A DNA stretch of 44,361 nt, from contig MEWP01000068.1 in NCBI GenBank assembly GCA_001775395.1, forward strand, positions 27,049-71,409. Reading direction: 5' to 3'. Numbering within the stretch: the first letter of the stretch is position 1; each line of letters opens with the position of its first letter. Source of the DNA: a candidate division Zixibacteria bacterium RBG_16_53_22. Lineage in GTDB: Bacteria > Zixibacteria > MSB-5A5 > UBA10806. The notes beneath the pieces are model-generated. The model was not told the DNA's origin, made no database searches, and saw only the letters and a list, made by a program, of their open reading frames with translations. A program made the translations under genes and the position numbers. Of this stretch, positions 3,505-22,078 are shown piece by piece.

Positions 3505-4812
3505 TTATTTTACATAGACCATTCTGATGACATTGCTACGGTTATTGCCAATTGCCTCTCCGTCGGCCCGGGTGACAAGCACTGCATGGTAAATGCCCGC
3601 CGCGCAGACCTCTCCGCGATAGTTAGTACCATCCCAAATGACGCGATTTGAGCCGGCATTAACGGCGATGCTGTTTATCCGTCTTCCCAGGATGTCAATG
3701 ATCTCGATATTGGCCCTGGGGGTTCCCATAAGGCTATATTTAATAGTCGTTTGGGTGTTGAAAGGGTTGGGGTAGCTGCCGATCAACGAAATCTGCAATG
3801 GAGCGGGAACATCATCATTCACCCCGTTTATCCTGGTATCCAGAATAACGATCGATTGTGGGCCGTCACCAACAGCAAAGGGCATGTATGGCGGTCCCTG
3901 CAGGCTGATCTTGGAAACCGTATCATCGCCGAAATTACAGGTGTAGATGAAACCAACCGAATCGACGGCCACGTCCATAGCCCCAAGGCCAACAATTACG
4001 GGATTGTCGATTCCATTGATAATTTGACGTGTTTGCGCATTATATGCCAGGAGGAATCCGTGGTCAATCCATCCTCCGGCCGCCAGAAAGACTATGCTCC
4101 CCGGCGCTACCGCCCCGTTTACAGGCTGTCCGCCGATAAGAAGGGAGTCGACAACGGCGCCGGCGGCGGTATCGTAAATATAAACCGATCCGGCCACATC
4201 AGTGTAATTCCCGGTGCAGATAACATGAAATATGCTATTGGAAACTCGAACGAACGACTGAGGATTTTTGCCGACATCGATCTCGTCCTCCAAAATCATA
4301 TTGATGGGATCTATTCTTGCGATTTGTCCCTGACCGTAGGAGAAGTCGTTTGGATTGAAAGCTGTCTGCGCGGCATATAGCTTACCACCCAACACGATTA
4401 AGCCCTCGGGGAAGCCGCCGATCTGGATTTGGTTATCGACTTCGTTCGTGGCCAGGTTGACTCGATAGACGAATCCCGAAACCCATCCGGAGACAAAGGC
4501 ATAATTACCGTCGAAAGCGAAAGAATAAGGATTCGAGCCGATCACGAATGGAATATCGGCGACGGTTTGATAGTCGATCGGGCTGATTTTCAGCAGATTG
4601 GCAGAGATCGAATTTACCACATAAAGGTATCCGTCGTGAAATCCGACTTGATTGGGCGTATCGCCCAGCGTGGCGATATGATTCTGCACGACGCCCGTTT
4701 CGAGGTTGATTTTGGACAGCGTTTCAGCCAGGTTATTGATAATAAACGCCTCGGGGTCGGCCGAGACTCTTGCCGCTGATAACAGCGCCATGATAAATAA
4801 TAACTTCCTCAT
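3505..4812 (-). CDS. Secreted YncE-like beta-propeller with T9SS tail, candidate BtuG-type cobalamin-binding protein
   Basis: 435 residues from the ATG at 4812, chosen over an in-frame ATG 12 bases upstream because GGGAGG lies five bases before it and it overlaps the receptor stop (ATGA). A signal peptide (MRKLLFIMALLSAARVSA) is followed by about 320 residues of repeated blades of the YncE/NHL kind (examples: DTPNQVGFHDGYLYVVNS, NPYSFAFDGNYAFVSG, GPQSIVILDTRING). The last ~85 residues are a T9SS sorting domain (SYPNPFNTQTTIKYSL to RMVYVK). It is co-transcribed with a BtuB-like receptor under a cobalamin riboswitch. In Bacteroides, BtuG is a surface beta-propeller lipoprotein that captures B12 and hands it to BtuB. 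By position and fold I infer the same role here, with T9SS export replacing the lipid anchor. B12 binding itself is not visible in the sequence. Confidence 0.75.
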   Translation of the reverse strand: MRKLLFIMALLSAARVSADPEAFIINNLAETLSKINLETGVVQNHIATLGDTPNQVGFHDGYLYVVNSISANLLKISPIDYQTVADIPFVIGSNPYSFAFDGNYAFVSGWVSGFVYRVNLATNEVDNQIQIGGFPEGLIVLGGKLYAAQTAFNPNDFSYGQGQIARIDPINMILEDEIDVGKNPQSFVRVSNSIFHVICTGNYTDVAGSVYIYDTAAGAVVDSLLIGGQPVNGAVAPGSIVFLAAGGWIDHGFLLAYNAQTRQIINGIDNPVIVGLGAMDVAVDSVGFIYTCNFGDDTVSKISLQGPPYMPFAVGDGPQSIVILDTRINGVNDDVPAPLQISLIGSYPNPFNTQTTIKYSLMGTPRANIEIIDILGRRINSIAVNAGSNRVIWDGTNYRGEVCAAGIYHAVLVTRADGEAIGNNRSNVIRMVYVK

Positions 4813-7040
4813 GTACCCTCCCATAGTCTGGTTATTTGAATTTTCGCGTTTAACTCTCTTGGCCTCTCGGGAACGCGTTCTAAGATTTCGTAAGGGCGGT
4901 CCGAGGCATTGAGAACATCGATCCTGGGAACGAGCTCGAGCCCGGCCAGGCGGAATGTATAATTAATCGAGATATCGAGAATGTCGACCGGCGCAAGGGA
5001 CTTGGTGTTTTCCTCAGTCATGAATCGTCGACCGATATGCCGACCCGAAACCGAAAGATTAAATTTGCCGAGGCCCAGGACGAGATCGACCCGTTGACTT
5101 CCGACCGGCCTGAAAGTCAGATATTTGCTGTAATAGACAGTATTCCCCTCGCGATTCACCGGCCTGATGAAACTGCCATTCCAGGAAATACTAACCGGGC
5201 CTGCAAATGGCCTCAGGGAGGCTCGCATTTCCCAACCATCGATTTTGGCGGCCGAGAGGTTAACCGGCTTAAACTTATCCCCTCCCCATCTGCGCCAGAC
5301 GATGATATCATCATACCATGTCTCGAAACGCGCGACACCAAACGCAGATTGCCACGAGGAGCCCGGTTCGATTCCAACTCCAATCTCGTAGCCGGTCGAT
5401 CTCTCCGGCAGCAGCCCGGGATTGGGAGTCGCAAAAACATCTTCTTTCCAATATAGGTCGGTGAGATTGGGCAGGCGCTGGGATCGGAAGAGGGCGAGAT
5501 TCAGGCTGGTCCGAACCGGCAAGTTCAGAATCAAATGCATGGCAATCGATGGTCCCCAGAAAGTGTTGTCTCCGGCGCGCTCCGCTTTAAGGCCAATATT
5601 AGTTGTTGAATTTTTCATGAAGCCGCTGAGCGCGGGAAGGGCAACCTGAGCTCCCAACCCGGAGATAACAATATCCCGTGAATGATGGCCAAAGCTCGCA
5701 TCAGGCCTTATGCGATCGGCGCCCTCGAGTGTCTCACGCCGAATTGACGCGGCGCCATTCAATCCTACCCGGCCATCGCGACTGATTTCGATCTTGAGAT
5801 CATGCGCTCTCTCCGAAAAATCGGAATCATAGGGGATGAAGTTTGTCGGGGTGGCAGGTGATCGGTAGCTAATCGTGCGGGAGAGAATCCCGCCGTCGAT
5901 ATTCACACTGAACCTGTTGCTTGATCTGCGCTCGGCAATAAAGTAAAATTCGCGCTCGAATTCGCCGGACGTGGCCAGGGGAGTATACTGGAATACCGGC
6001 CCGGGGATTCCCGACCGGCGCTCGAAATAGCGGCCCTTGACCGCAAGCGAGAAGGCCTTCCCCTCATATCCGGCCTGACCGAAAAGCTTGCGGTCTCGAA
6101 GATAATTATTCTCTCGCGTTTGAATCTGCCCGCGGGGATCGATATAAGCGAAGTCGCCGCGCGAGAAAACGCCGACAAGATCCAGACCGGCAAAGATTTC
6201 CGATTTGAAGCTGTTATTGAGATTCAAGGAATATGACTCGCGTCCAAAACTACCCCGTTCGGCAGTCGAGGAAATTATATTTTCCCGAGAGGACCTGTTC
6301 GTAATGAAATTGACGCTGCCAGCCAACCCCGATCTGTCATAGTCGCCGCCCCTTATCATCTCGACCTCGGATATTGCGGCCAACGGTATGCGAGAAAGAT
6401 CGCCGGTGGATGTCAAAGCGGAATTTTGGATTCTACCATCCAGCATGACCAAGACGGCATTGGCCTGCGATCCCCTGATTCGCAACAGCCGTTGTTGCCC
6501 TGAGCCGACAAGCTCAAGCTCTGGAATGGCCTTGACGAGGTCCTCGATTGTGCTCAATTCGCCCGGCCGGATCGAAATCCTGGTGATATTGCCAATGCGA
6601 TCCGTGTGGATTTGTATCGGCCTTTGGGCAGATACAACCTGGTCACTAATCCTTATTGGTTCCGGACAAAGGGTGATATTCAATGTAGAGGGCAGATCTG
6701 AATTGATATCGGCTGCAATCGGACCTGATGAAACATATCCGATGCGACCGGCTCGAACAACATAATGGCCGCTCGGAATGCCAGCAAAAACAAAGCGCCC
6801 GGATTGGTCGCTTGATACGGCCCGCCCGATGCCATCGATTGTGACGGTAGCCCCCGCAACGGGCGCGCCAGACCGGAGATCAATGATCTGTCCGGAGATT
6901 TTTATATCTGTCTGAGCAAATAAGGCGGGCGGGCGAAATAAAGTTGTGGCCGATGCCAGCAAAGCCGCCAAAATAAAAATCCGGCCTCGAGATGTCCACG
7001 GGATCCAAGTGACCGGAAACAGGTTCTTAGTCTTTCCCAT
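4809..7040 (-). CDS. btuB: BtuB-like TonB-dependent outer membrane receptor (vitamin B12)
   Basis: 743 residues from the ATG at 7040. A longer reading frame exists upstream but it would run through the riboswitch, so I reject it; GAGG lies close before this ATG. Domains in order: signal peptide (about 1-43); a carboxypeptidase-regulatory-like beta-sandwich (45-125; ISGQIIDLRSGAPVAGATV); a TonB plug (about 155-250; LRIRGSQANAVLVMLDGRIQN and ISEVEMIRGGDYDRSGLAGSVNFITN); then a beta-barrel to the C-terminus. Substrate assignment comes from the cobalamin riboswitch immediately upstream and the BtuG-like propeller downstream, not from barrel residues. The extra N-terminal domain is typical of FCB-type receptors. 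No btuCDF or cobalamin biosynthesis gene is in the window. Confidence 0.85.
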   Translation of the reverse strand: MGKTKNLFPVTWIPWTSRGRIFILAALLASATTLFRPPALFAQTDIKISGQIIDLRSGAPVAGATVTIDGIGRAVSSDQSGRFVFAGIPSGHYVVRAGRIGYVSSGPIAADINSDLPSTLNITLCPEPIRISDQVVSAQRPIQIHTDRIGNITRISIRPGELSTIEDLVKAIPELELVGSGQQRLLRIRGSQANAVLVMLDGRIQNSALTSTGDLSRIPLAAISEVEMIRGGDYDRSGLAGSVNFITNRSSRENIISSTAERGSFGRESYSLNLNNSFKSEIFAGLDLVGVFSRGDFAYIDPRGQIQTRENNYLRDRKLFGQAGYEGKAFSLAVKGRYFERRSGIPGPVFQYTPLATSGEFEREFYFIAERRSSNRFSVNIDGGILSRTISYRSPATPTNFIPYDSDFSERAHDLKIEISRDGRVGLNGAASIRRETLEGADRIRPDASFGHHSRDIVISGLGAQVALPALSGFMKNSTTNIGLKAERAGDNTFWGPSIAMHLILNLPVRTSLNLALFRSQRLPNLTDLYWKEDVFATPNPGLLPERSTGYEIGVGIEPGSSWQSAFGVARFETWYDDIIVWRRWGGDKFKPVNLSAAKIDGWEMRASLRPFAGPVSISWNGSFIRPVNREGNTVYYSKYLTFRPVGSQRVDLVLGLGKFNLSVSGRHIGRRFMTEENTKSLAPVDILDISINYTFRLAGLELVPRIDVLNASDRPYEILERVPERPRELNAKIQITRLWEGT

Positions 7041-7064
7041 CCTCAAACCTCGAAGGTAACAGGA

Positions 7065-7232
7065 ATTTAGATTTGCGATGGTATCCTGACTTTCGCCCCA
7101 TCTCGGGCGCCGCGCCTTCCCTCCGACATCTGCCGAATGTGGCCTCTGCGGCAATTAAGCGATTACAGTAGCGGGACTGTGGCGGATTTTCACCGCCTTC
7201 CCATCGGGGCATTAAACAACTGCCCTATTTTC
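7065..7232 (-). ncRNA. Cobalamin riboswitch
   Basis: The minus-strand leader of the receptor gene carries the conserved cobalamin core: GGGAAGGCGGTGAAAATCCG, then ACAGTCCCGCTACTGTAAxCG, and the 3' B12 box AGTCAGGATACC (7091-7080). A P2-like hairpin (GGGCA/TGCCC) lies before the core. These elements bind adenosylcobalamin or related cobalamins and switch off uptake and synthesis genes when B12 is plentiful. No U-tract terminator follows the B12 box. A short ACCT/AGGT hairpin overlaps the region just before the start codon, so control is probably at translation initiation (inference). The boundaries are approximate. Confidence 0.95.
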
Positions 7233-7237
7233 ATATA

Positions 7238-7267
7238 ATCATATTATCAATGCCGGGCGGTTGTCAA
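7238..7267 (-). promoter_or_regulatory. Sigma70-type promoter of the B12 uptake operon
   Basis: On the minus strand TTGACA (7267-7262), an 18-base spacer and TATGAT (7243-7238) sit a few bases before the 5' end of the riboswitch. The perfect -35 and 5/6 -10 match make this a good candidate for the single promoter of riboswitch, receptor and propeller. Confidence 0.7.
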
Positions 7268-7481: not shown

Positions 7482-10112
7482 CTATTTTTCCAGCGTCATT
7501 CGACCGCTTAAACTTCCCTGTTCCGTCGTCAAGCGATAGAAATAAACCCCGGATGGTTGCATCGAGGCATCCCATGTGATCAGGTGTTTTCCGGGCTCGA
7601 GCCTGGAATCGAGAGGGGTCGCGGCGATGCGGCCCAACAAGTCGAATATTTCAAGTTTCACGTTACTGGAATGGGCGATAAAAAACGAAATCCGCGTGGA
7701 CGCGTTAAACGGGTTGGGATAATTCTGGAATAGCAAGAAATCCTGCGGTAAAAAGTTGGGAGCCTCCGCAACCTGAACAGGCCCTCTTAAGAACCTCATG
7801 GCGGCATTCAGAAATTGCCGGCGAGTGCCATAGTAGAGCGGGAACAAATCATTAATTCCCTCAACGCCAAATCCCACTGTCAACGCTTTGTAAGCGCCAT
7901 CATATGCTGCGGCCGCAGGGCGATCTGAGCCATAAGCCAACAGCGTGATTCCGCCCGGGTAGACAGTCAGAGCGTCTTGGGAGGACTGATTGTTGGCGCC
8001 GCCCTGGCCGGCGGTGAAGAAATCCAGGCTATCGAAGACAGTACCGGGAAGTCCGACTGGGCGATGGTCGAGGTCGGCCCTGTCATATCCAACCTTGAGA
8101 TATTGATGAATCAATATCGTATCTTGCATGGTGCTGCGCTCGGATAGCCGCTGGACAAAATCCTGGCTTGTCATCAGCAGGTGGCCCGCGCCGTTCAAAT
8201 AGGCGGTCAGCGCCGTAACTCCGGAGACAGGCATCGCCTGGGCGCGGGTGTTGCCGGTGAACCAAATAACGTAGTCATACTGCGACAGCACTGAATCGGG
8301 CGAACCTAAGGACGATACATTCCAATAGGCATATGGCTCGTTGATAGAATCGAGGGCCTGGGTATAAAATGTATCTATCGACATGCCGTTGTCGTCATCG
8401 ACGAGGAGTAGATCGGGGGTTCCGAGCACTGAGCGCCTAATGAAATCCTGGGTGTAGAGACCACCGCGCGCCACGAATCTCAGGGTGAAATTCGCGAAAT
8501 TGCTGGTATATCCTTGCGGGACTGTGAATGAAATAGGATCTGCCGCATTGGAAAATGGCTCGTCGACCGGAATAGTCCCGAATACTGATATCGAATCGCT
8601 AAACGTAATCAGGGGATCACTGCAGGATGCTGTGACAGTGAGATCATTTGTCAGGGCTCGAATGTTTCGGGCGGTGAAGATCAGGTCGCAAGTTTCGCCA
8701 GCTTCGGGCTGTCCATTACCGTTCCCGGCGGAATCGTCGAAACTGAAATTCAGAAGCTCATAAAACGGGTCAATGTACATCACTGCCAAATCGGCAATCA
8801 TGGTCGAATCGGAGTTGCTCATTTCATATACTCCAACCTCCGAGTAGGCGCCGTCGTAAAAATTCGAGTTGGGCGCCGAGAAGTCATCGAAAGTTCTATT
8901 ATCGAATGTCCCCGGCCAGGGATCGCCGGCATCGGAACCACGGTTATTTTCCAGGTCGAATCTGCCATCGGCTTGCTCGACCGCTACTTTGTAGTGGTTC
9001 TGATTGTTGTTGTCGGGCACCGTCTCATCGACATGGAAAATCACGAGCCCGTCGCCGGGCAGGCTGATGTCGAAAGATATCCTCTGTCTGTTTTCGACCA
9101 GGAAATATTCGTAGTGGGGGATTCCATAACTGTAAAGTCGGTATATGTCTGGGCTGATTTCGACAGCATCAATTTGCTCATCATAAAGATTAATACCGGG
9201 ATCGGTCGGCATGACCCAGCCAAGTTCGGTTTTGCACCAGGCATCGAAATGAACGGGCCTGGCTCCGCCGCCGCCCCAGGATCCGCCGGCCATTACCGAC
9301 CATGAACCAACACCGTCGGAATCATAATCGTAATCATATAGGTCTGGCAAACCCAGAACATGCCCGAATTCATGGCAGTAGACCCCAATAGTGGCAAAGC
9401 CGCCCGAACCGGTTTCCTCGGGCTCCATGGAATAGCTGTATGCTTGAACACCATCGACCGTCATGGGATTGCTTAATACCCAGGCATGAGAATGGATATA
9501 GTTCAAGTCGCCGGTATCCTCGTAACCTGGCCCGGCATGCACCACAAATAGCGCGTCAACCCAGCCATCACCATCATTGTCAAAAACTGAAAAATCGATA
9601 CTGGGATCAGCGGCGCTCACGGCATCTTCCGCCAGACGCTGGGCGTTATGCGGATACTGCCCGAAACCCCTCTGGCCGTCAACATAGTAAGCGTAGGCCT
9701 GCGGCATCCTCAGCCATTGAGTTACCTGGCCGACCAGGAACGCCTGGTTGTAAGATGTTTCGAAGTAGTAATCGGTCATACTCCCGGGATAGGTGATGCC
9801 GGTCGAAAAAAGGAGCGTATCGAAATCGCCGGGTTCGGAATGAACTACCCATTCGTGCTGCATATCGATGAAATCGACCAGGATAATCAGGCAGTGAAGC
9901 GTGTCGACATCAGTAGCCGCGTTTCCGAATCGAATGGGATCTGGATGGGCCTGCCATACCCCCCTTTCCCTGGCCTGGCGGTCGGCCCGGACAATCGTCT
10001 GTAACTGCCCCGATTGCTTGAGCCTTTCGACGATCTCGGGTGCAATACTCACGGCGCCGGCAACCTGAAATGCCCCGAACAGAATCATTAATATTGCGAA
10101 TTTGTTTTTCAT
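7482..10112 (-). CDS. Secreted M6-family metalloprotease with T9SS sorting domain
   Basis: 876 residues. A signal peptide (MKNKFAILMILFGAFQVAGA) precedes an immune inhibitor A-like M6 peptidase domain. The zinc site is HEFGHVLGLPD (about 247-257), with both histidines, the catalytic glutamate and the third ligand Asp257, followed by a downstream Met turn (SVMAGGSWG). Asp-rich putative calcium sites (DNDGDGWVDA, DYDYDSDG) surround it. A beta-sandwich region (about 440-560) and a further domain (about 560-790) lead to a C-terminal T9SS domain (NYPNPFNASTRISFFI, DLLGR, SGVYFYRL, ending GRMTLEK). It is expected outside the cell or on its surface, degrading proteins; the substrate is unknown. A TTGACA-type promoter may lie upstream. 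The gene is intact and apparently monocistronic. Confidence 0.93.
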   Translation of the reverse strand: MKNKFAILMILFGAFQVAGAVSIAPEIVERLKQSGQLQTIVRADRQARERGVWQAHPDPIRFGNAATDVDTLHCLIILVDFIDMQHEWVVHSEPGDFDTLLFSTGITYPGSMTDYYFETSYNQAFLVGQVTQWLRMPQAYAYYVDGQRGFGQYPHNAQRLAEDAVSAADPSIDFSVFDNDGDGWVDALFVVHAGPGYEDTGDLNYIHSHAWVLSNPMTVDGVQAYSYSMEPEETGSGGFATIGVYCHEFGHVLGLPDLYDYDYDSDGVGSWSVMAGGSWGGGGARPVHFDAWCKTELGWVMPTDPGINLYDEQIDAVEISPDIYRLYSYGIPHYEYFLVENRQRISFDISLPGDGLVIFHVDETVPDNNNQNHYKVAVEQADGRFDLENNRGSDAGDPWPGTFDNRTFDDFSAPNSNFYDGAYSEVGVYEMSNSDSTMIADLAVMYIDPFYELLNFSFDDSAGNGNGQPEAGETCDLIFTARNIRALTNDLTVTASCSDPLITFSDSISVFGTIPVDEPFSNAADPISFTVPQGYTSNFANFTLRFVARGGLYTQDFIRRSVLGTPDLLLVDDDNGMSIDTFYTQALDSINEPYAYWNVSSLGSPDSVLSQYDYVIWFTGNTRAQAMPVSGVTALTAYLNGAGHLLMTSQDFVQRLSERSTMQDTILIHQYLKVGYDRADLDHRPVGLPGTVFDSLDFFTAGQGGANNQSSQDALTVYPGGITLLAYGSDRPAAAAYDGAYKALTVGFGVEGINDLFPLYYGTRRQFLNAAMRFLRGPVQVAEAPNFLPQDFLLFQNYPNPFNASTRISFFIAHSSNVKLEIFDLLGRIAATPLDSRLEPGKHLITWDASMQPSGVYFYRLTTEQGSLSGRMTLEK

Positions 10113-12667: not shown

Positions 12668-14683
12668 GTGAATGATGAAAGCCTAATCACAAGAGTCCGC
12701 CGCAAGTTAATAGGTAAGCCCCGCGACGTAAACGACCCATCGATTTTCCACAAGATCGCCCTCATACCCCTTCTCGCCTGGATCGGCCTGGGGGCTGATG
12801 GCTTATCATCATCATCTTACGGACCCGAGGAGGCTTTCAAGGCCCTGGGTGAGCATACCTACCTGGCTGTCTTCCTGGCTGTGGGAACGGCCATTACAGT
12901 ATTTGTCATCTCATTTGCATATATGAAAATCATCGAGCACTTCCCTCAAGGCGGAGGTGGCTACGTCGTGGCATCACATATGCTCGGCGAAAAGGCGGGT
13001 GTGATTTCGGGAAGCGCCTTATTGGTTGATTATATGCTGACCATCACTGTTTCAATTGCAGCATGTTCCGACGCGCTTTTCAGTTTTCTTCCGATCGAAT
13101 TTCACCACTATAAGCTTGTTTTCTCGACTCTGCTGATTTTAGCACTGATAATATTGAATATCCGCGGAGTCAAAGAATCGATTGCCGTCCTGGCGCCCAT
13201 ATTCGTGGTCTTTATCCTGACCCATGCCATCCTCCTTGGCTATGGCATTCTGTCGCATACGAATCAGGTCGGACCGGTTATCGAAGATTTGGGAAACCAT
13301 TTCAGCTACGACATATCCACCATCGGGGTGGCCGCCATTTTGGCGATACTCCTGCACGCTTATTCCCTGGGTGGCGGCACCTATACCGGTATCGAGGCAG
13401 TCTCAAATGGCCTGCAGATAATGCGCGAGCCCAAAATTCACACCGGCAAGACGACGATGCTTTATATGGCTGTATCGCTGGCGGTGACAGCCGGTGGTAT
13501 TTTCCTCTGCTACCTCCTTTGGGACATGGCTCCGGTCGAGGGCAAAACACTTAATGCCAGCCTGGCGGAATCCATTTTTTCCGGCTGGGGCATCGGCCAT
13601 ACTCTGGCGGTGATCACCATTTTTTCCGAGGGGGCGTTATTGCTGGTGGCCGCTCAGACCGGATTCATCGATGGTCCGCGGGTGATGTCGAATATGGCGG
13701 TCGATAGCTGGCTGCCGCGGAGATTTGCCACTCTATCGGATCGCCTTACCATGCAAAACGGCGTGATGCTTATGGGCATCGCCGCGCTCATGCTGTTGTT
13801 TTTCACGGCAGGCTCAGTGGGAGCCCTGGTGGTCATGTACTCGATAAACGTGTTTTTGACATTCACGCTCTCGCAGTTTGCCATGGCCAGGTTCTATTTC
13901 ATGAATCGCGCGGAGGATCGGAAATGGGCACGCCATATCACGATTTTTCTAATCGGATTCCTGCTGTGCGCAATCATTCTGATAGTGACGCTGGTCTCGA
14001 AATTCAGCGAGGGTGGATGGCTGACGCTTCTGATAACATCGGTCGTGGTCGGCCTATGTTTTGTGATTCGGCGCCATTACCAAAGGGTGAAATCCGAGCT
14101 TGAGAACCTCGACCGCTTATTCATCGAACTGCCGACATCGGAGAAATACAACGACAAGCCCGTCAATCCCAACGACATGACCGCCATTCAACTTGTCGGC
14201 GGCTATAATGGCTTCGGGATCCATACATTCCTATCTATAATCAAAAATTTCCCAAATCTTTATAAAAATTTCATTTTCGTTTCGGTCGCGGTGATTGATA
14301 CCGGCTCATTTAAGGGGAAATCCGAAATAGAAAACCTGAAGGCCTCTGTACTGAAAAGCCTGGAGAAATATGTCGAATTGGCCAGACGGTTTGGATTTGC
14401 GGCCGAATATCGCTTCGAAGCGGGCACCGATGTCGTCGAAAGCGCAGTCGAGATCTGCACGGCCACGACCGCGACATTTCCGCGCTCGACAGTTTTCGCG
14501 GGGCAGCTGACTTTCAGCCTCGAAAAATTCTATCATCGCATTCTACATAATGAGACTGCATTCGCGATCCAGAGGCGATTACACTGGTCCGGTATCACTG
14601 CCGTGATATTGCCGATCCGAATGAAGGTGGGGAAATCAGGATTGAAAAAGGCGAAAAAGCAACCGCCATCACTTGACAATTAG
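12668..14683 (+). CDS. KimA-like APC-superfamily permease (probable potassium importer)
   Basis: 671 residues with about 12 membrane helices and a cytoplasmic C-terminal domain of about 200 residues. The N-terminus (RRKLIGKPR, LGADGLSSSSYGPEEAFKALG, FPQGGGGYVVASHMLGEKAG, LLVDYMLTITVSIAACSDAL) resembles Bacillus subtilis KimA (YdaO), a high-affinity potassium/proton symporter inhibited by c-di-AMP. Other APC permeases share parts of this pattern, so an amino-acid substrate cannot be excluded. The start is GTG at 12668; the nearby ATG at 12672 is out of frame, and GGTGA upstream is a modest ribosome binding site. The 3' end overlaps the convergent S8 protease gene by 15 bases. A PgpH-like HD phosphodiesterase in the same window fits c-di-AMP signalling. 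Confidence 0.82.
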   Translation: MNDESLITRVRRKLIGKPRDVNDPSIFHKIALIPLLAWIGLGADGLSSSSYGPEEAFKALGEHTYLAVFLAVGTAITVFVISFAYMKIIEHFPQGGGGYVVASHMLGEKAGVISGSALLVDYMLTITVSIAACSDALFSFLPIEFHHYKLVFSTLLILALIILNIRGVKESIAVLAPIFVVFILTHAILLGYGILSHTNQVGPVIEDLGNHFSYDISTIGVAAILAILLHAYSLGGGTYTGIEAVSNGLQIMREPKIHTGKTTMLYMAVSLAVTAGGIFLCYLLWDMAPVEGKTLNASLAESIFSGWGIGHTLAVITIFSEGALLLVAAQTGFIDGPRVMSNMAVDSWLPRRFATLSDRLTMQNGVMLMGIAALMLLFFTAGSVGALVVMYSINVFLTFTLSQFAMARFYFMNRAEDRKWARHITIFLIGFLLCAIILIVTLVSKFSEGGWLTLLITSVVVGLCFVIRRHYQRVKSELENLDRLFIELPTSEKYNDKPVNPNDMTAIQLVGGYNGFGIHTFLSIIKNFPNLYKNFIFVSVAVIDTGSFKGKSEIENLKASVLKSLEKYVELARRFGFAAEYRFEAGTDVVESAVEICTATTATFPRSTVFAGQLTFSLEKFYHRILHNETAFAIQRRLHWSGITAVILPIRMKVGKSGLKKAKKQPPSLDN

Positions 14684-16348
14684 CATCTTCCTCGAAATCG
14701 AGGACAGGGCCTCCAAACGCGCGAAATAGATGCCGGTCGAAACCAGCCTGCCCCTATCGTTGGAACCATCCCACACAACGCTCCCGCCGCCGGTAATCCT
14801 CAAGTGCCGAACCACTCGCCCGGTGATATCATAAATGTCAATCATCTCACCCGAGCGTACCCGGGGATCGAAAGTGATGGTTGTAGCGCCGTTGAAGGGG
14901 TTCGGATAGTTGGTGAGAATTCCCGATATGACGGGCAGCCGGTTATCGACGGCCGGTGTCGAACCGGGAAGCAGGTAGACGGCCGTCCAGATATCGATGA
15001 CTCCCCAGCCGTAGCTGTTATCCTCGCCCTGCGGCCCGTAATCGACCGCCGAATTTAGAAGCGCCGCCTTGATCTCTTCGGGAGTCGCATTGGGATTGAC
15101 CTGGCGTAGAAGAGCCACGGCGCCCGCTACGTGCGGGGTCGCCATCGAGGTGCCGGAAAGCGCGATATAACCGCTATCGAGATATGATGAGCGAATGGCC
15201 ACCCCCGGAGCGGTAATCTCGGGTTTGATTGTGGTATGGTCACATCCTGATGGTCCCCGGCTGGAGAAGTCGGCAACGATAAATGTGTCACCGATTGTCG
15301 ATACTGCTCCTACAGAAAAGGAATTAAAGGCAGAAGTGATCCTGTCGGCCGGCGTACGCATGGTTTCGGCGCCGGGGCCTTCATTACCCCCGCCGAAAAC
15401 CGCCACCACCCCAGCAGCCTCGAGATTGTCGATTGCTTCCCAGAAGGTCTGATCGCAGGCAGGGAAATAACCCGCCGGAATACCCCATGAGTTGTTGACG
15501 ACGTCGGGCACGTCATGGGTGGTGGCCGGGTTACAGTCTGGGTCTGCCGCCCACTGGAACGCACCTAACAGATCGCTGATAGTTCTCAGTATTCCGCCAC
15601 CTCCGATCGCCCTGGCCGCGATCCACTGCGCTCCCGGCGCCACGCCGATCGTATCAGGGCCGTCGGATCCGACCATGATACCCATCGTATGGGTGCCGTG
15701 GCCTTGCAAGTCATAGGGCCGTTGCTCCTCGTATCCGGCGGGGTCGAACCAGCATTCATTGGGAGGGGCCCCATTGTTGCCTCGGTACTTGTAGTAAAGG
15801 GCAGGATGATCGACATCGACGCCGGTATCGAAATTACAAACGATGGAACCGGTTCCATCGATCCCCATTGCCCAAACCGCGGGCGCCCCGATGACTCCCA
15901 GGCCGGGTTCATGGCCGGAATTGACAGGCGGGACATCTCGGCTTTCCACGGGCGCCACAAGCTCCACGGGAACGTTCTCGAAAGCATATTCGACGTCGGG
16001 ATGTCCCTTCAAGCCTTCAAGAACGCCATGATCGGCGGTAACCACGACGGCATTTATAATCCAGAGTCTCTTATAAGAATCGATTTCCCCGAATTGGCTC
16101 AATTCATCCAGGCGCGAAATAAAACCGGCCTGAGATATGGTGGCCTTGTTCATGAGATGTTCCACCACTAAATGATGGCTGGAGACCTTGTCGCCCAGCC
16201 TTGAGCCGGCCGGCAGCGGCGGCCCCGACGAGCGCAATTTGAAAATCATCGTCTCGGCATTTGAATCGATGAAAAGAAGGATTATTGCGAATATTATCGA
16301 GATGACTTTCGCGAATAAGTTGAATGGGGCATTTTGAAATTTATTCAT
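14669..16348 (-). CDS. Secreted S8 (subtilisin-like) serine protease with T9SS sorting domain
   Basis: 559 residues from the ATG at 16348; an in-frame TTG lies 18 bases upstream and neither has a strong ribosome binding site. A signal anchor or peptide (about 10-31) is followed by an inhibitor-I9-like propeptide region and a subtilisin domain similar to bacillopeptidase F. The triad is Asp in CNFDTGVDVDHP (about 174), His in QGHGTHTMG (about 217) and Ser in SGTSMATPHVAG (about 401); VNNSWG carries the oxyanion Asn region. The last ~85 residues are a T9SS domain (TNYPNPFNGATTITF, YDITGR, WDGSNDRG, STGIYFARL, RKMLIVK). It is expected outside the cell. The gene converges on the KimA-like gene. 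Confidence 0.94.
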   Translation of the reverse strand: MNKFQNAPFNLFAKVISIIFAIILLFIDSNAETMIFKLRSSGPPLPAGSRLGDKVSSHHLVVEHLMNKATISQAGFISRLDELSQFGEIDSYKRLWIINAVVVTADHGVLEGLKGHPDVEYAFENVPVELVAPVESRDVPPVNSGHEPGLGVIGAPAVWAMGIDGTGSIVCNFDTGVDVDHPALYYKYRGNNGAPPNECWFDPAGYEEQRPYDLQGHGTHTMGIMVGSDGPDTIGVAPGAQWIAARAIGGGGILRTISDLLGAFQWAADPDCNPATTHDVPDVVNNSWGIPAGYFPACDQTFWEAIDNLEAAGVVAVFGGGNEGPGAETMRTPADRITSAFNSFSVGAVSTIGDTFIVADFSSRGPSGCDHTTIKPEITAPGVAIRSSYLDSGYIALSGTSMATPHVAGAVALLRQVNPNATPEEIKAALLNSAVDYGPQGEDNSYGWGVIDIWTAVYLLPGSTPAVDNRLPVISGILTNYPNPFNGATTITFDPRVRSGEMIDIYDITGRVVRHLRITGGGSVVWDGSNDRGRLVSTGIYFARLEALSSISRKMLIVK

Positions 16349-16530
16349 CGCAACAAATGAATTCAAAAGGCATGCCCGAATCGAGATTGGTTTCCCAAAT
16401 GCCTACGTAGAGAACACAATCAGCGACAATGGCTTATAGGGAAATTTCCGATGCGCATGGCGTGCACAACACAAACCATGAAAAAAATGCGCAAGGCGAT
16501 GCGCATTAGCTGAAAGCCCGGAGTCAAGAT

Positions 16531-16560
16531 AAAAAAAGCCCCCGGCTTTGGGCCGGAGGC
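16531..16560 (-). terminator. Rho-independent terminator after the beta-rich T9SS cargo gene
   Basis: On the minus strand GCCTCCGGC, a CCAAA loop, GCCGGGGGC and seven T residues follow the stop at 16581. The stem is 9 bp including G-T pairing. This is a clear intrinsic terminator. Confidence 0.88.
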
Positions 16561-16580
16561 TTAAATAGGCGCGGAGGCTG

Positions 16581-18458
16581 TTATTTAATCAGTACCATCC
16601 GCCTGGTTTCGGACAAGTCGCCGACACTTATCTTGTAGAAGTAAACGCCGGAGGCGACATTGGAAGCATCCCAAATGATGCTGTTATGGCCGGCGGCATA
16701 AAGCCCGGATACAACATCAACACGCTGGCCAGCGATGTTATAGATATCGAACCGCACATCCGATTCGCTCTTCAATGAGAAATTGATGGCCGTTTTCGCG
16801 TTGAATGGGTTCGGATAGTTCTGGGCCAGGCTGAACGCCTTGGGCACGGGGGTTTCATCGATGCCGGTGATTGTGACGGTATCGGCAAAAACCTTGAACA
16901 TGATATCGGAGGAGCCGCGATCACGATCCTGGGCCAGGCCGCCGGTGTATTCCCATCCCCTGTTGGAGAGCGGAACGGAATTATCCATGGCGAACGAAAA
17001 TGTGCTCTGCAGGGCATGCAGGACAACCAGGTAGAATTTGGCATTGGGGGCAAATATTAGATTGTCGGCCCAACTGAAGTCGACATCGACAAAAGTGCCT
17101 GCCATACCGGTGGTAACTTGCATAGTATCACCCGCCAGAATGTTGTGCTCCCAGGGGTGGCCGGCGCTGTCCGGCATTATCCAGATATACGCTGGTCCTT
17201 CTGCCGTAACGTCAGAGACCATGAAGCTGCCGCGCGTCATCCTGACAGCCTCGGGAACTTCGAATTCCACACCAAAGCCGGAGAAATCGCCATTCCAACT
17301 GCGGCCGGAACCGCCCGGTATATTATCATCGTAGCGGAGCTCTTGCGGCAGCACGTAAACCGGCATTTCAATGGTCTTGACATTATTGAGATTGTTGGCG
17401 TCACCGCCCAGCATCGTCGTGAAAGTTATTCGCCAGGTCCCAGTCTGGGTTGGGGCGAAGTCGACGAAGTCCATCCAAACTTGCGCGGCGGGCTCAATTG
17501 CGGCTATGGTGTCGTAATGGTCGTAGACAGGAGTGCTGGAGCCACGCCTGATCTGGCACCTAACCGGAACATTGGTTTCGGCGCGGTTACCGAAGTTTTT
17601 GAATAAAGCTCGCGGCGTAATGGTGCTGTCGTCATGCACGAAAATAGCCCCTGACGATTCATTCATACCCTCGAACACGCCCATGTCATGCACCACATAA
17701 CTGGGATTGGGAATAACCGTGAACCTGAGCGCCAGATTGGCGTGCCACATGTGGCTCGACGGCAGGTTATCCTCGAGGTATTCCAATCCCACCTGGCCAT
17801 TGACGTTTTCGATGCCTATGACATCCTGCAAATTGCCGTTCTCGTTGAAATTGCCATGATTCTCGCCGTATTGAAACGTGATCGACGAATCAACAGAGGC
17901 GAGGATCATCTGGAAAGTATGGGTCGAGTCGTCGAGCCCATGATCGGCGCTGAATTGCGGCACGGCTATCCAGGATACGATGAAGGAGTCGACGTTGTTG
18001 CTGTAATACCAGCATTGGCCGCCGCGGGTGAAATCGAGATCGCCTGTCAGCACCGCCAGCAGGTCGTTGGGTAGGGTGTCGGGATCGGGGATGCTGGTGA
18101 AAGGATGGGCATAGTTGTTGCTGAAACTGAATGAAATGTAGCCGTTGGATCCGATCCACATGTGGTTGACAGTATACCAATAATAAGGGAATTCAAATCC
18201 CATGGAGATGGGGCCGACATTGTTGTCGTCGGCCAACCCGAGCAGGCGGGTGCCGTTACCTGTGATGTCGATCCAATTGAAGGTCGGGCCGCCGCCGCCA
18301 TCATTATCGACCCACCTGTAGCCATAGGCATCCGGGCCACCCTGATCGAAAGGCGTCGGATCGGGGATGGCGGGCGCGCTGGGATCGGCGCCCGGCATAG
18401 CCAGAGCGACCGAAACCATGGCCAACAGCATGATTGAAACCATAAAAGCTTTTCTCAT
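16581..18458 (-). CDS. Secreted beta-rich protein of unknown function with T9SS sorting domain
   Basis: 625 residues from the ATG at 18458, preceded by AAGGAGG (18470-18464); an upstream in-frame TTG lacks support. A signal peptide (MRKAFMVSIMLLAMVSVALA) is followed by about 210 residues with repeated Gly, Asn and aromatic residues (DAYGYRWVDNDGGGGPTFNWID, MWIGSNGYISFSFSN). This resembles the beta-sandwich N-terminal module often found before other domains in FCB secreted proteins. An adhesion/CARDB-like segment (about 270-370) and a further beta domain (about 385-530) lead to the T9SS domain (NYPNPFNAKTAINFSLK, IYNIAGQRVD, SGVYFYKI, RRMVLIK). No catalytic site was found. I suggest a surface structural or binding role, with low certainty. 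Confidence 0.8.
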   Translation of the reverse strand: MRKAFMVSIMLLAMVSVALAMPGADPSAPAIPDPTPFDQGGPDAYGYRWVDNDGGGGPTFNWIDITGNGTRLLGLADDNNVGPISMGFEFPYYWYTVNHMWIGSNGYISFSFSNNYAHPFTSIPDPDTLPNDLLAVLTGDLDFTRGGQCWYYSNNVDSFIVSWIAVPQFSADHGLDDSTHTFQMILASVDSSITFQYGENHGNFNENGNLQDVIGIENVNGQVGLEYLEDNLPSSHMWHANLALRFTVIPNPSYVVHDMGVFEGMNESSGAIFVHDDSTITPRALFKNFGNRAETNVPVRCQIRRGSSTPVYDHYDTIAAIEPAAQVWMDFVDFAPTQTGTWRITFTTMLGGDANNLNNVKTIEMPVYVLPQELRYDDNIPGGSGRSWNGDFSGFGVEFEVPEAVRMTRGSFMVSDVTAEGPAYIWIMPDSAGHPWEHNILAGDTMQVTTGMAGTFVDVDFSWADNLIFAPNAKFYLVVLHALQSTFSFAMDNSVPLSNRGWEYTGGLAQDRDRGSSDIMFKVFADTVTITGIDETPVPKAFSLAQNYPNPFNAKTAINFSLKSESDVRFDIYNIAGQRVDVVSGLYAAGHNSIIWDASNVASGVYFYKISVGDLSETRRMVLIK

Positions 18459-18567
18459 TAATTCCTCCTTAAGATTTTTATATTTCGCGCTCAAACAGAC
18501 TAATTTTCTCTAAGCTCACCTCCTTATCAATCTTTCTAATTAAGTGAAATGTGCTTTTTACGTTCGC

Positions 18568-21500
18568 CTATTTTATCAAAGTCATTCTTCTGGTCAAGAC
18601 TTCTTCACCGGCCTGAAGACGGTAGAAGTATATCCCCGACGAAACCGAGACGCCCGACTCGGACCGGCCATTCCAGATCAGATCGTGCTCACCGGGTTCG
18701 AGATACCCCTGATGGAGCAGGCGGATTCGCCTGCCGAGCAGATCGTAAACGGAGAGGGTCACATCGGATCCCGACGGCAATGAAAAACCAATCCTGGTCT
18801 CAAGATTGAACGGATTGGGGTAATTTTGATCGAGCCTGATCGATAAGGGCAGCGGCACGTGACCGTCTTCGATTCCAGTCAGGAAAAAGCCATAGTAGCC
18901 GTTTCTGCCGATATCCTTGCCAAACTGCGGCCAGGGGAAGGGCTGCGATGTGAGGTCGTCTTTGTAATCGATGACCTCGAGGTTGTTGCCGGCGATCTTC
19001 ACGCCGGTGATAATTTCGCAATCGCCGTCGTTATCGATATCGGCCAGCGCGGCCGAACCCGGTATCTCGGCCGGATTGCTGACGGTGATGGGGAAGTTAT
19101 GGAGCGCCTGAGCCTGATAATTGACAGCGTAAATTTTTCCGTCGTAGTCGCCGAAAACGATATCGGGGTAATTGTCGCCATTTATGTCACCGATGGCGGG
19201 AGACGAAGTGATCATGCCGCCGGTTTGCAGCGGAAATCCGCCCTGCGGGGTGCCGTCATTGTTGAAGACGTAGAGCCGCCAGTCGTTGCAGCCCACCACT
19301 ATTTCCAGCCGGCCGTCGCGATCGATATCGCCGAGCGATGGTGAGGAATAGATCGCTGATCCCGCGTGTTGCGGCCAACCCGGCATGACCGTGCCGTCAT
19401 TATCGAGCACAAAGAGGTCGCCGCTGCCCGTGCCGACAACAAGATTGAGATTGCCATCCCCATCGATATCCGCTACAGCCGCGGCTGTTCTTATCTGGCC
19501 GGTAAGCCTTCGAGGGAATCCCGCAACGTAGGTCTTATCGGCGTTCCACACATGGACGCTGGAGTCGAGGTCGCAGTAGATAATCTCTTTCAAGCCGTCA
19601 TTATCTATGTCGGCCAGGGAGGCAGCGCCGTAGAAATAGCCGATACCCTGATATGGCCATGTGCCGTAATCAGTGCCATCGCGCCGAAGCACGTGCACTC
19701 TCTTGGTGGTGAAGGTGCCGGCGATTATTTCCATGAGCGAATCGCCGTCGATATCGCCCACCACGGGGGTGCCGAACATGACGCTTCCCAGGCTGCGCGG
19801 GAAACCGGCTACGGAGGAACCATCGGCGTTCCACATATAGATATTGCCGTTACGCGCCATGCCAACTACCTCGAAATCGCCGTCATGGTCGAGATCGCCG
19901 GCGGCGGCGCCACCGGGCGCCTCATGGGCGACCGTCACGGGCCAGCCGGCTGTCAGTGAGCCGTTTGACTCAAATGAATAATAATTTCTATCGCCGGCCC
20001 CGACAATGATCTCCTTGCCGGCATCGGAATCGAGATTCGATACCAGGGCCGGTGATTCTATGTTGCCGGGGATATTGCCGGGAAAACCGGCTTGTTCGAG
20101 GGTGACCGATACCGCGAGGGTGATCTCGGAGCTGAAGCCGGAGCCGGTGGTTAGTTGAAGCGTGAACTCATGGCTTCCGATCACGGCGTCCTGATTGACC
20201 CGAATATCAAACGGGTTCGAGGCGTTGTTCCCCTGCCCCCCATTGCCCGGAATAGCGCCAAAAGTCGCGACCGAATCCAAAATTGTGAATTGACCGTCAG
20301 ATCTCAGGACCCCGGTGACATTCGAGGCGCTTTGCCAGGCGTTTGAAACGGTCACCGCGAGATTAAATCGCTCGCCCGGATTCAGCAGCTGATCGCCGTC
20401 GTCCTCGGTTTGAGTGATACTGATGCCGCCGAGGAGAAACCGCGGAAAGTACTCTCGGCCCACCGCCACCGCGGCGTTAACTCGTCCCCGTCCCAGCATG
20501 CCGCGATAGCTCGGATTCAGATGATCTATGGTGTCGGCGCTATTTTGCATCAGGTTGACGACGCTATCGACCGAGATGCTGGGACGCGCCGCCCGGATCA
20601 GGCAGACGACACCGGCCACGATCGGCGAGGACATCGAGGTGCCCTGAAGAGAGGTATAACCGCCGTGGTCCCATGTCGAATAAATACCCTCGCCGGGAGC
20701 CGAGATGTCGACCCAGATGCCATAGTTGGAGAAATATGATTTCACATCGTTGCCGTCAACGGATGCCACGGCGACAACGTGATTATACCCAGCGGGGTAA
20801 GATCGTGACGAGGTGTCGTCGTTTCCGGCGGCGGCCACAACCACGATACCCATGGCATAAGCGGAATTAATAATATTCTGTTCGAATTGCGAGGGGCTTC
20901 CAGGCCGGCCCCAGCTTAGATTGATGACAGTGGCGCCATTTTCGACTGCGTAGACGATGCCGTCATAGCCGTAAGGCACATATTCCGGATTGCTGCCGGA
21001 GCATTTCAGGGCCATAATCCTGGCCCCCCAGGATATGGCGGCGCCACCGATACCATTATCGCAAGCCATGGTGGCGCATCCGGCGACATGGGTGCCGTGG
21101 TATGGGTATGGCTCGAAGGGAATATTATCGTTATTTCCGAAATCCCAGCCAACGACATCATCGTCATAGCCATTGGCATCTTCATCCAGATAGTTTATGT
21201 CGGCATCGGTAAATAGGCCGTCGTTGTTTATATCCTCGGGCTCGTTGATCCACATATTGGGCTCGAGTTCGGGATGGTCATAATAAACGCCGGAATCGAC
21301 AATACCGAGGATGGGCCTGCTGGTCGTGTCGCCGCGGATGAAATCCCACGACATGTAGGCCTCGATCTTATTCAGATGATACCAGGCCCCGATGAGAGGG
21401 TCATTGGGCAGATAATATGCGCGATGGATGTAATATGGCTCGGCCGACTCGATACGGCCATCGGCCGACAGAGACTCGATTGCCGATTCGAGGTCACCGC

Positions 21501-21828
21501 CATCGCCTATGGTGAATATGTACAAACGATCGACAACATCACGCAGAATCTCATGGCTGATCTGTCCCTTGTAGAATCTCTCTATACTGGTGACTCTTTC
21601 GGCAACGATTATGCGATCGAGGTCGGCATAGCCGGTCGAGATCGAGCCGGTAGCTGTCGGATCGACCGGGACCAGTTCCACGCCCCGTTGAATCGAGACC
21701 ACTATGCGGTCCGCAAAGAAATCGACGCCGGGAATACCGTCTATGGCGTAAGGATTGGCGGTGGGAATCAACAAGGCCAGGCCAAGCAAAAGAGCCGGCC
21801 TTTGGAATCCGAAACAGGATTTTATCAA
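18568..21828 (-). CDS. Large secreted S8 serine protease with FG-GAP repeats and T9SS domain (copy 1)
   Basis: 1086 residues from a TTG start preceded by GGGGGAG; no ATG lies nearby and the signal peptide (about 1-28) fits. The subtilisin-type catalytic domain spans roughly 170-460, with Asp178 (GIVDSGVYYDHP), His244 (YHGTHVAG) and Ser398 (QGTSMSSPIVAG). An Asp/Asn-rich insert (NNDGLFTDADINYLDEDANG) looks calcium-binding. A beta-sandwich (about 465-590) is followed by seven or more FG-GAP/VCBS-like repeats (about 600-960; DIDGDGNLNLVVGTG and similar), which suggest a beta-propeller. The C-terminal T9SS domain (NYPNPFNLETRIGFSL, DLLGR, SGIYFYRL, RRMTLIK) completes it. It is paralogous to the gene upstream with the same domain order. 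It probably acts outside the cell or on its surface. Confidence 0.95.
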   Translation of the reverse strand: MIKSCFGFQRPALLLGLALLIPTANPYAIDGIPGVDFFADRIVVSIQRGVELVPVDPTATGSISTGYADLDRIIVAERVTSIERFYKGQISHEILRDVVDRLYIFTIGDGGDLESAIESLSADGRIESAEPYYIHRAYYLPNDPLIGAWYHLNKIEAYMSWDFIRGDTTSRPILGIVDSGVYYDHPELEPNMWINEPEDINNDGLFTDADINYLDEDANGYDDDVVGWDFGNNDNIPFEPYPYHGTHVAGCATMACDNGIGGAAISWGARIMALKCSGSNPEYVPYGYDGIVYAVENGATVINLSWGRPGSPSQFEQNIINSAYAMGIVVVAAAGNDDTSSRSYPAGYNHVVAVASVDGNDVKSYFSNYGIWVDISAPGEGIYSTWDHGGYTSLQGTSMSSPIVAGVVCLIRAARPSISVDSVVNLMQNSADTIDHLNPSYRGMLGRGRVNAAVAVGREYFPRFLLGGISITQTEDDGDQLLNPGERFNLAVTVSNAWQSASNVTGVLRSDGQFTILDSVATFGAIPGNGGQGNNASNPFDIRVNQDAVIGSHEFTLQLTTGSGFSSEITLAVSVTLEQAGFPGNIPGNIESPALVSNLDSDAGKEIIVGAGDRNYYSFESNGSLTAGWPVTVAHEAPGGAAAGDLDHDGDFEVVGMARNGNIYMWNADGSSVAGFPRSLGSVMFGTPVVGDIDGDSLMEIIAGTFTTKRVHVLRRDGTDYGTWPYQGIGYFYGAASLADIDNDGLKEIIYCDLDSSVHVWNADKTYVAGFPRRLTGQIRTAAAVADIDGDGNLNLVVGTGSGDLFVLDNDGTVMPGWPQHAGSAIYSSPSLGDIDRDGRLEIVVGCNDWRLYVFNNDGTPQGGFPLQTGGMITSSPAIGDINGDNYPDIVFGDYDGKIYAVNYQAQALHNFPITVSNPAEIPGSAALADIDNDGDCEIITGVKIAGNNLEVIDYKDDLTSQPFPWPQFGKDIGRNGYYGFFLTGIEDGHVPLPLSIRLDQNYPNPFNLETRIGFSLPSGSDVTLSVYDLLGRRIRLLHQGYLEPGEHDLIWNGRSESGVSVSSGIYFYRLQAGEEVLTRRMTLIK

Positions 21829-22012
21829 AAACTCCCCCTGACTTGGCAGGTGCTTCGAATGAGGCTTTGTATCACAAGATGCGACTTTGTCTTACGTGAA
21901 CGATCCACAGCATGCATCAAATTACCCAAAGTAGCTTAGCCCCTTAATTAGATTTATTAATATAGCTACCTGTTGTCAAGGAAAAAACGGCGCGACAATC
22001 CCTAATTCTCCA
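21829..22012 (-). promoter_or_regulatory. Intergenic leader between the two large S8 protease genes
   Basis: This region holds a TTGACA -35-like hexamer on the minus strand (21979-21974) followed by AT-rich DNA without a clean -10. It is the likely promoter region of the downstream protease gene, because a strong terminator precedes it. No riboswitch or tRNA was seen. Confidence 0.35.
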
Positions 22013-22058
22013 GCTTAAAAAAAGCAAAAGCCCCATCCAACAGGAAGTTAGATGGGGC
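22013..22058 (-). terminator. Rho-independent terminator after S8 protease copy 2
   Basis: On the minus strand GCCCCATC (22058-22051) pairs perfectly with GATGGGGC (22037-22030) and is followed by TTTTGCTTTTTTT. It separates the two paralogous protease genes into independent transcripts. Confidence 0.88.
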
Positions 22059-22078
22059 CCTGCGTGTCAAATCATAAA

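Follow-up and report, generated by a model that had tools for sequence, protein, structure and literature searches.

A riboswitch-preceded BtuB-like receptor and BtuG-like propeller with a type IX secretion tail in Zixibacteria: one of several anchors on a widespread pair

The window analysed here is a stretch of 44,361 nucleotides (nt) from the candidate division Zixibacteria bacterium RBG_16_53_22 (assembly GCA_001775395.1, contig MEWP01000068.1, positions 27,049 to 71,409). Its minus strand carries, between positions 7267 and 3505, a cobalamin riboswitch, a BtuB-like TonB-dependent receptor and a predicted secreted beta-propeller protein, in that order. We propose, with a probability of roughly three in four, that this locus is a B12 (corrinoid) uptake operon whose propeller is a BtuG-like lid or trap exported by the type IX secretion system (T9SS), and that it belongs to a widespread family in which the anchor of the propeller has been exchanged repeatedly. 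An original prediction, made from the sequence of this stretch alone, had named the riboswitch ahead of the receptor, the BtuB type of the receptor, the ATGA overlap of the two genes, and a YncE-like propeller in the BtuG position with a signal peptide and a T9SS tail but no lipobox; the whole arrangement is confirmed by the results below. Earlier descriptions present BtuG as a gut adaptation that is confined to the lipoproteins of Bacteroidetes. Under the BLASTP parameters they chose, Wexler et al. 2018 (PMC6143338) report no BtuG homologues outside the Bacteroidetes, homology there being defined as a BLAST E < 1e-10 to BtuG1-3. Here the variation lies in the anchor, a T9SS tail on a BtuG-like, riboswitch-controlled pair, and the pair is not a curiosity, being spread over much of an uncultured phylum and beyond. 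If our proposal is true, B12 capture with the help of a lipoprotein would be a single form of a more general strategy, and at least three means of anchoring the lid would exist.

In the proposed mechanism, low intracellular cobalamin would lead the riboswitch to permit synthesis of the receptor and of the translationally coupled propeller. The propeller would be exported by the Sec pathway, carried over the outer membrane by the T9SS via its C-terminal sorting domain, which is probably cleaved by PorU, and then held at the cell surface. There it may form a lid-like complex with the receptor, bind corrinoid as BtuG does and pass the corrinoid to the BtuB-like receptor, whose import would be TonB-driven. 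The features of the locus are as follows.

7238-7267, minus strand: promoter-like site TTGACA-18-TATGAT, directly upstream of the riboswitch (consensus scan, 11/12 matches)
7059-7251, minus strand: cobalamin riboswitch aptamer (RF00174, 68.1 bits, full length 1-189)
4809-7040, minus strand: BtuB-like TonB-dependent receptor, 743 amino acids (aa) (Pfam, NCBIfam, receptor profile against the PDB)
6669-6899, minus strand: CarboxypepD_reg-like domain at the receptor N-terminus (PF13620, E 1.1e-14, residues 48-124)
6342-6584, minus strand: receptor plug domain (PF07715, E 2.1e-8, residues 153-233)
4950-6140, minus strand: receptor beta-barrel (PF00593, E 8.8e-12, residues 301-697)
4809-4812, minus strand: ATGA overlap of receptor TGA and propeller ATG (read from the sequence)
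3505-4812, minus strand: predicted BtuG-like secreted propeller protein, 435 aa (AlphaFold2, Foldseek)
4759-4812, minus strand: Sec signal peptide, residues 1-18, with an AxA-type cleavage site (inspection; lipobox scan negative)
3829-4758, minus strand: seven-bladed YVTN/YncE-like beta-propeller (PDB sequence and profile searches, AlphaFold2, Foldseek)
3508-3774, minus strand: T9SS type A sorting domain (Por secretion tail, FlgD/immunoglobulin-like), YPNPFN...RMVYVK (TIGR04183, PF18962, PF13860)

Architecture of the locus and its relationship to known systems

The riboswitch passes the curated threshold of its family with a wide margin (68.1 bits at E 7.9e-15, where the gathering score is 31.5; positions 7251-7059) and is the sole RF00174 match in the whole genome. 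It ends 18 nt upstream of the receptor ATG, and as no terminator-like site was seen between the two, translational control is likely. The promoter-like match at 7267-7238 is by itself no evidence of function; its end at 7267 accounts for the boundary drawn there by the original prediction. At 4812-4809 the stop codon of the receptor overlaps the start codon of the propeller, and translational coupling through this ATGA is likely. The propeller has two candidate starts in frame, an ATG at 4824 (439 aa, as called by the open reading frame tool) and one at 4812 (435 aa), of which the latter is preferred for its better-placed ribosome-binding site, GGAGGG.

Plug (PF07715) and TonB barrel (PF00593) are both over cut-off in the receptor, and its N-terminal CarboxypepD_reg-like domain is typical of Bacteroidota-type TonB receptors. 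When a profile built from seven Zixibacteria receptors was run against all PDB chains, the top ten chains were all B12 receptors, namely BtuB1-3 of Bacteroides thetaiotaomicron and BtuB of Escherichia coli (E 1e-40 to 1e-35), with XusA, Cir, FepA and PqqU behind them; PqqU was reached at 1e-19, against 1e-40 for BtuB. The best single-sequence PDB match of the receptor is XusA (9gbc), through a shared N-terminal domain and plug. XusA-XusB of Bacteroides is likewise a lipoprotein-assisted TonB receptor, but it is a siderophore system, and the profile search ranks it below BtuB. Structure prediction of the receptor is weak (predicted local distance difference test score, pLDDT, 67; predicted template modelling score, pTM, 0.58), too weak for its loops to be compared with EL8 of BtuB; barrel strands are present in the model, and its five best structural matches are all BtuBs, with PqqU at rank 6. 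Among NCBIfam families, the BtuB models score highest or nearly so with this receptor and its relatives, at scores under the equivalog cut-offs. These results indicate a receptor of the BtuB type.

The propeller resembles BtuG in both sequence and fold. Its best PDB matches in a single-sequence phmmer search are BtuG chains (E 2e-7). A profile of 21 propeller relatives places the archaeal S-layer propeller 1l0q first and BtuG chains next (1e-19 to 1e-12), and a profile built from relatives outside the phylum reaches BtuG at 1e-24, with better E-values than the Zixibacteria profile. The AlphaFold2 model has seven blades and a pLDDT of 77, most blocks of the propeller lying at 82-97. Foldseek lists BtuG at every rank from 2 to 17 (16 chains), represented by 8ptf with a template modelling score (TM) of 0.77, a root-mean-square deviation (rmsd) of 3.1 and 18% identity; the first rank goes to 1l0q, whose rmsd over two domains is 13.9, and behind BtuG the TM falls to 0.57 with the following family. 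Positions invariant in the family cluster in short motifs that start the blades (PN, NP, PEG, NPQ, CTGNY, GGxP, AAGGW, GDGP), and these motifs may line a corrinoid pocket. The original prediction had named a propeller unlike BtuG and a receptor from a clade with another ligand as outcomes that would speak against it; neither came about.

Among the closest described systems is BtuB-BtuG of B. thetaiotaomicron (PMC6143338, PMC10404256), which has in common with the present locus a cobalamin riboswitch and a BtuB adjoining a seven-bladed propeller; the similarity extends to the fold of the propeller and to the receptor profile, as given above. The two differ in the anchor, as BtuG is a lipoprotein with a lipobox and an export signal, whereas the propeller of the window combines a Sec signal with a T9SS type A tail. 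Around the window's pair, no neighbouring gene was recognised as BtuH/J/K-like.

By inspection, the propeller opens with a signal peptide of Sec type, MRKLLFIMALLSAARVSA/DPEAF, and the lipobox scan found no lipobox cysteine. At the C-terminus, the sorting domain reaches 27.9 bits with TIGR04183 (cut-off 23), and the same model gives 24.8-45.5 bits on the tails of relatives L031, L033-L035, L037 and L041. Components of the T9SS machinery are present in the genome: it encodes SprA (a 1990-aa frame), PorU (697 bits, cut-off 420) and eight PorV-family proteins over cut-off, one of which adjoins PorU, together with about 109 sorting-domain matches to TIGR04183. The propeller resembles type A cargo of the T9SS (TIGR04183/PF18962) in its C-terminal immunoglobulin-like sorting domain, its Sec signal and the accompanying SprA, PorU and PorV, and differs from it in a tail that falls below the Pfam gathering score. 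We regard the sorting domain, as judged from its sequence, as real but divergent. In a literature search that had subscription papers and preprints outside its scope, no report of a B12-binding T9SS cargo was found, and BtuG and type IX secretion were named together only in a paper on the BAM (beta-barrel assembly machinery) complex.

Several observations weigh against the proposed reading. Sequence identity between the propeller and BtuG is just 18-19%, and 1l0q scores equal to or above BtuG, so that B12 binding cannot be deduced from homology. The receptor remains far below the cut-offs of TIGR01779 (68.9 bits, cut-off 599.7) and PRK10641 (68.8 bits, cut-off 836), models that appear to describe the proteobacterial BtuB type. 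The sorting domain lies under the Pfam gathering score of 27 (PF18962 23.1, PF13860 25.7), and type A cargo of the T9SS can end up either attached at the surface or set free (PMC10202324). GldM, a component of the T9SS motor, was not found, in a search that was silent everywhere, controls included, and a FecCD/BtuC permease (PF01032) was not found in this 96% complete genome, while 13/14 control genomes were positive.

Distribution of the pair and diversity of its anchors

Relatives of the propeller occur in 73 of the 132 Zixibacteria genomes. Among 61 Zixibacteria loci, 56 have the receptor directly upstream of the propeller on the same strand, the other five ending at a contig edge, which argues that the arrangement is more than chance. 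The genes of 51 of these 56 pairs overlap or lie within 60 nt of each other, with the exact 4-nt overlap in 11/56. A B12 box precedes 45 of 48 receptors by a motif screen that found none in shuffled DNA, and Rfam recognises RF00174 in all of the homologous Zixibacteria loci tested (22/22).

Outside the phylum, 22 of 156 genomes encode a relative of the propeller at E < 1e-20. Twenty of these loci were analysed, and 19 have a cobalamin riboswitch (RF00174 in 18 and RF01689, at threshold, in one); a receptor homologue is present in 15/20. SprA is found in 18/20 of the genomes concerned, which points to bacteria of the FCB (Fibrobacteres-Chlorobi-Bacteroidetes) type. Taken together, the linkage within the phylum and the riboswitch association outside it rule out a generic T9SS exoprotein that came to lie beside btuB by chance. 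In certain loci, e.g. L134, L143 and L148, a riboswitch stands directly ahead of the propeller itself, and in two others the receptor sits between two propellers (L138:4672-10881 and L132:3422-8868). The single RF01689 match (L149:3903-3969) is an AdoCbl-II riboswitch rather than the classical cobalamin class.

The C-termini of these propellers are far from uniform. Among the classified Zixibacteria propellers, 47 end in a double repeat of the dockerin type, which Pfam recognises as Dockerin_1 in 5/6 such proteins scanned, 11 in a T9SS-type tail and one in a transmembrane helix; the lipobox scan gave no convincing lipobox in any of them. The 11 T9SS-tailed propellers comprise the window's order and family f17; by these counts the T9SS tail is a minority solution within its own phylum. 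Since SprA is present in 117/132 Zixibacteria genomes and PorU over cut-off in 116/132, the dockerin-bearing majority is not without a T9SS. Across L040-L090, most secreted propellers carry a dockerin and neither a recognisable T9SS tail nor a lipobox, though the T9SS is near-universal in the phylum. Cohesin domains were found in 118/132 Zixibacteria genomes, and attachment of these propellers by a dockerin-cohesin interaction is for that reason possible. The transmembrane case (L084:596-1777) ends in a predicted helix followed by basic residues, and its sister L090 is of the dockerin type.

Outside the phylum there are nine T9SS- or FlgD-like tails, two dockerin-like tails and nine lipoproteins (ten with L146), and the lipoprotein propellers stop at the last blade. 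With one and the same permissive pattern, a lipobox-like motif is found in 9/9 propellers that lack a C-terminal module and in 4/72 of those that have one. Both anchor types can even meet in a single locus: in L138, one lipoprotein propeller and one tailed propeller flank a single receptor. In the propeller tree, a quick tree with long branches flagged, 12 changes of tail type are needed, and starred clades bring together dockerin and T9SS tails (L133 with L132b/L135/L136) or dockerin and transmembrane tails (L090/L084).

The wider search of genomes that the original prediction had called for thus returned riboswitch-receptor-propeller loci in many lineages, with T9SS, dockerin or lipoprotein tails. 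Its further suggestion, that a different phylum had reached the arrangement separately, is not supported: with homologous loci in many lineages and intermixed tails in the tree, repeated swapping of anchors on one old, widespread BtuG-like system fits better than convergence, and the T9SS form of the window is one of several interchangeable attachments for the same part. Independent recruitment of a YncE-type propeller beside btuB in Zixibacteria and in Bacteroides would be compatible with a B12-lid function, and the low identity to BtuG (18-19%) speaks in its favour, as does the construction of the tree without full-length BtuG sequences. We nevertheless consider convergence a minority possibility, because lipoprotein, T9SS and dockerin forms intermix within one propeller family across lineages, and because BtuG is reached with better E-values by the out-of-phylum profile (1e-24) than by that of Zixibacteria, which is what a continuum would produce.

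Attachment, function and ligand of the propeller

Of the readings that differ in what the propeller does, the main rival to a surface-held lid is a secreted trap. On this reading the propeller, after cleavage by PorU, would be set free, or would be kept at a distance from the receptor on cohesin or lipopolysaccharide; it would pick up B12 from the environment in the manner of a siderophore-type binder and dock to the receptor only when loaded. The release of type A cargo noted above is in line with such a trap, and so is the dockerin carried by most relatives in the phylum, which, given cohesins in most of the genomes, would put the propeller on a scaffold instead of next to the receptor. Against this, the translational coupling, and the occupation of the same gene position by lipoproteins in relatives, suggest that the propeller is a 1:1 partner kept close to the receptor, and we judge a secreted trap unlikely for the window's protein.

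A broader version of these ideas may be offered as tentative speculation, with the odds well against it as a whole. BtuG-like capture could be old and widespread in SprA-bearing bacteria of the FCB type, with the propeller serving as a detachable cartridge that has received a lipid, T9SS, dockerin or membrane tail; a binder with a dockerin or T9SS tail might then sit on a scaffold or be released as a protein 'cobalophore' that traps B12 away from the receptor, perhaps assisted by the DUF4430 lipoprotein, which is transcobalamin-like. Capture proteins of B12 transporter loci are known from another family, that of BtuJ and the DUF4465 B12 binders (PMC13398666), which are spread over several clades and are mostly lipoproteins.

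It is also conceivable that the receptor imports corrinoids while the propeller is a generic YVTN/S-layer surface protein that serves adhesion, shielding or protection from proteases and binds no B12. The first place of the archaeal S-layer protein 1l0q in both the profile search and Foldseek, and the functional diversity of YncE-like propellers, would agree with such a role. The strict linkage of the propeller to a cobalamin riboswitch and a BtuB-type receptor over many lineages does not, nor do the loci in which the riboswitch directly precedes the propeller, and 1l0q aside, with its rmsd of 13.9, the fold is clearly closest to BtuG; a generic surface protein is quite improbable on these grounds.

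In E. coli, a YncE-type propeller is encoded in the neighbourhood of the TonB receptor PqqU (YncD); the ligand of PqqU is pyrroloquinoline quinone (PQQ), and no cobalamin riboswitch is present. Import of another ligand such as PQQ by the window's similarly built pair, towards which a weak propeller match to the PQQ-associated family TIGR03866 (27.9 bits, cut-off 287) and the sixth rank of PqqU among the receptor's structural matches might point, is rejected as highly improbable on the receptor profile, in which PqqU trails BtuB (1e-19 against 1e-40), and on the cobalamin riboswitch that all Zixibacteria loci tested have, with PqqU/YncE scoring far behind BtuB/BtuG and DUF4430 lipoproteins among the neighbours.

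Neighbouring genes

A small lipoprotein bearing a DUF4430 domain (up to 64 bits against 23.8) is the product of the gene that follows the propeller in two Zixibacteria groups, one formed by L042/L043 and the other by eight loci between L044 and L082; this gene overlaps the propeller gene or lies within 13 nt of it. These lipoproteins are located at L042:5449-5799, L043:5506-5853, L044:7194-7646 and L049:7161-7577, and also in L057, L058, L074, L076, L080 and L082. DUF4430 corresponds to the C-terminal part of the vertebrate transcobalamins, which are B12 carriers (PMC4350170), and the lipoprotein is a possible further B12 binder by its domain content; a profile of the DUF4430 lipoproteins gave no matches in the PDB. 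In L078, a homocysteine S-methyltransferase gene (L078:7180-8121), a neighbour linked to B12 and methionine, begins 1 nt beyond the stop codon of the propeller gene. The genome of the window encodes several proteins with B12-binding domains.

A conserved third transport gene was excluded for the window's lineage, where the pair is followed by genes for a prfA-like peptide-chain release factor and a DUF1385-like membrane protein (named by eye); these two recur in eight loci and have no B12 connection. The window is otherwise a region rich in T9SS cargo. A T9SS-tailed M6 metalloprotease is encoded directly upstream of the riboswitch, at 7482-10112, and at 14669-25324 three subtilase-family proteases and one further protein, all with T9SS/FlgD-like tails, are encoded in a row.

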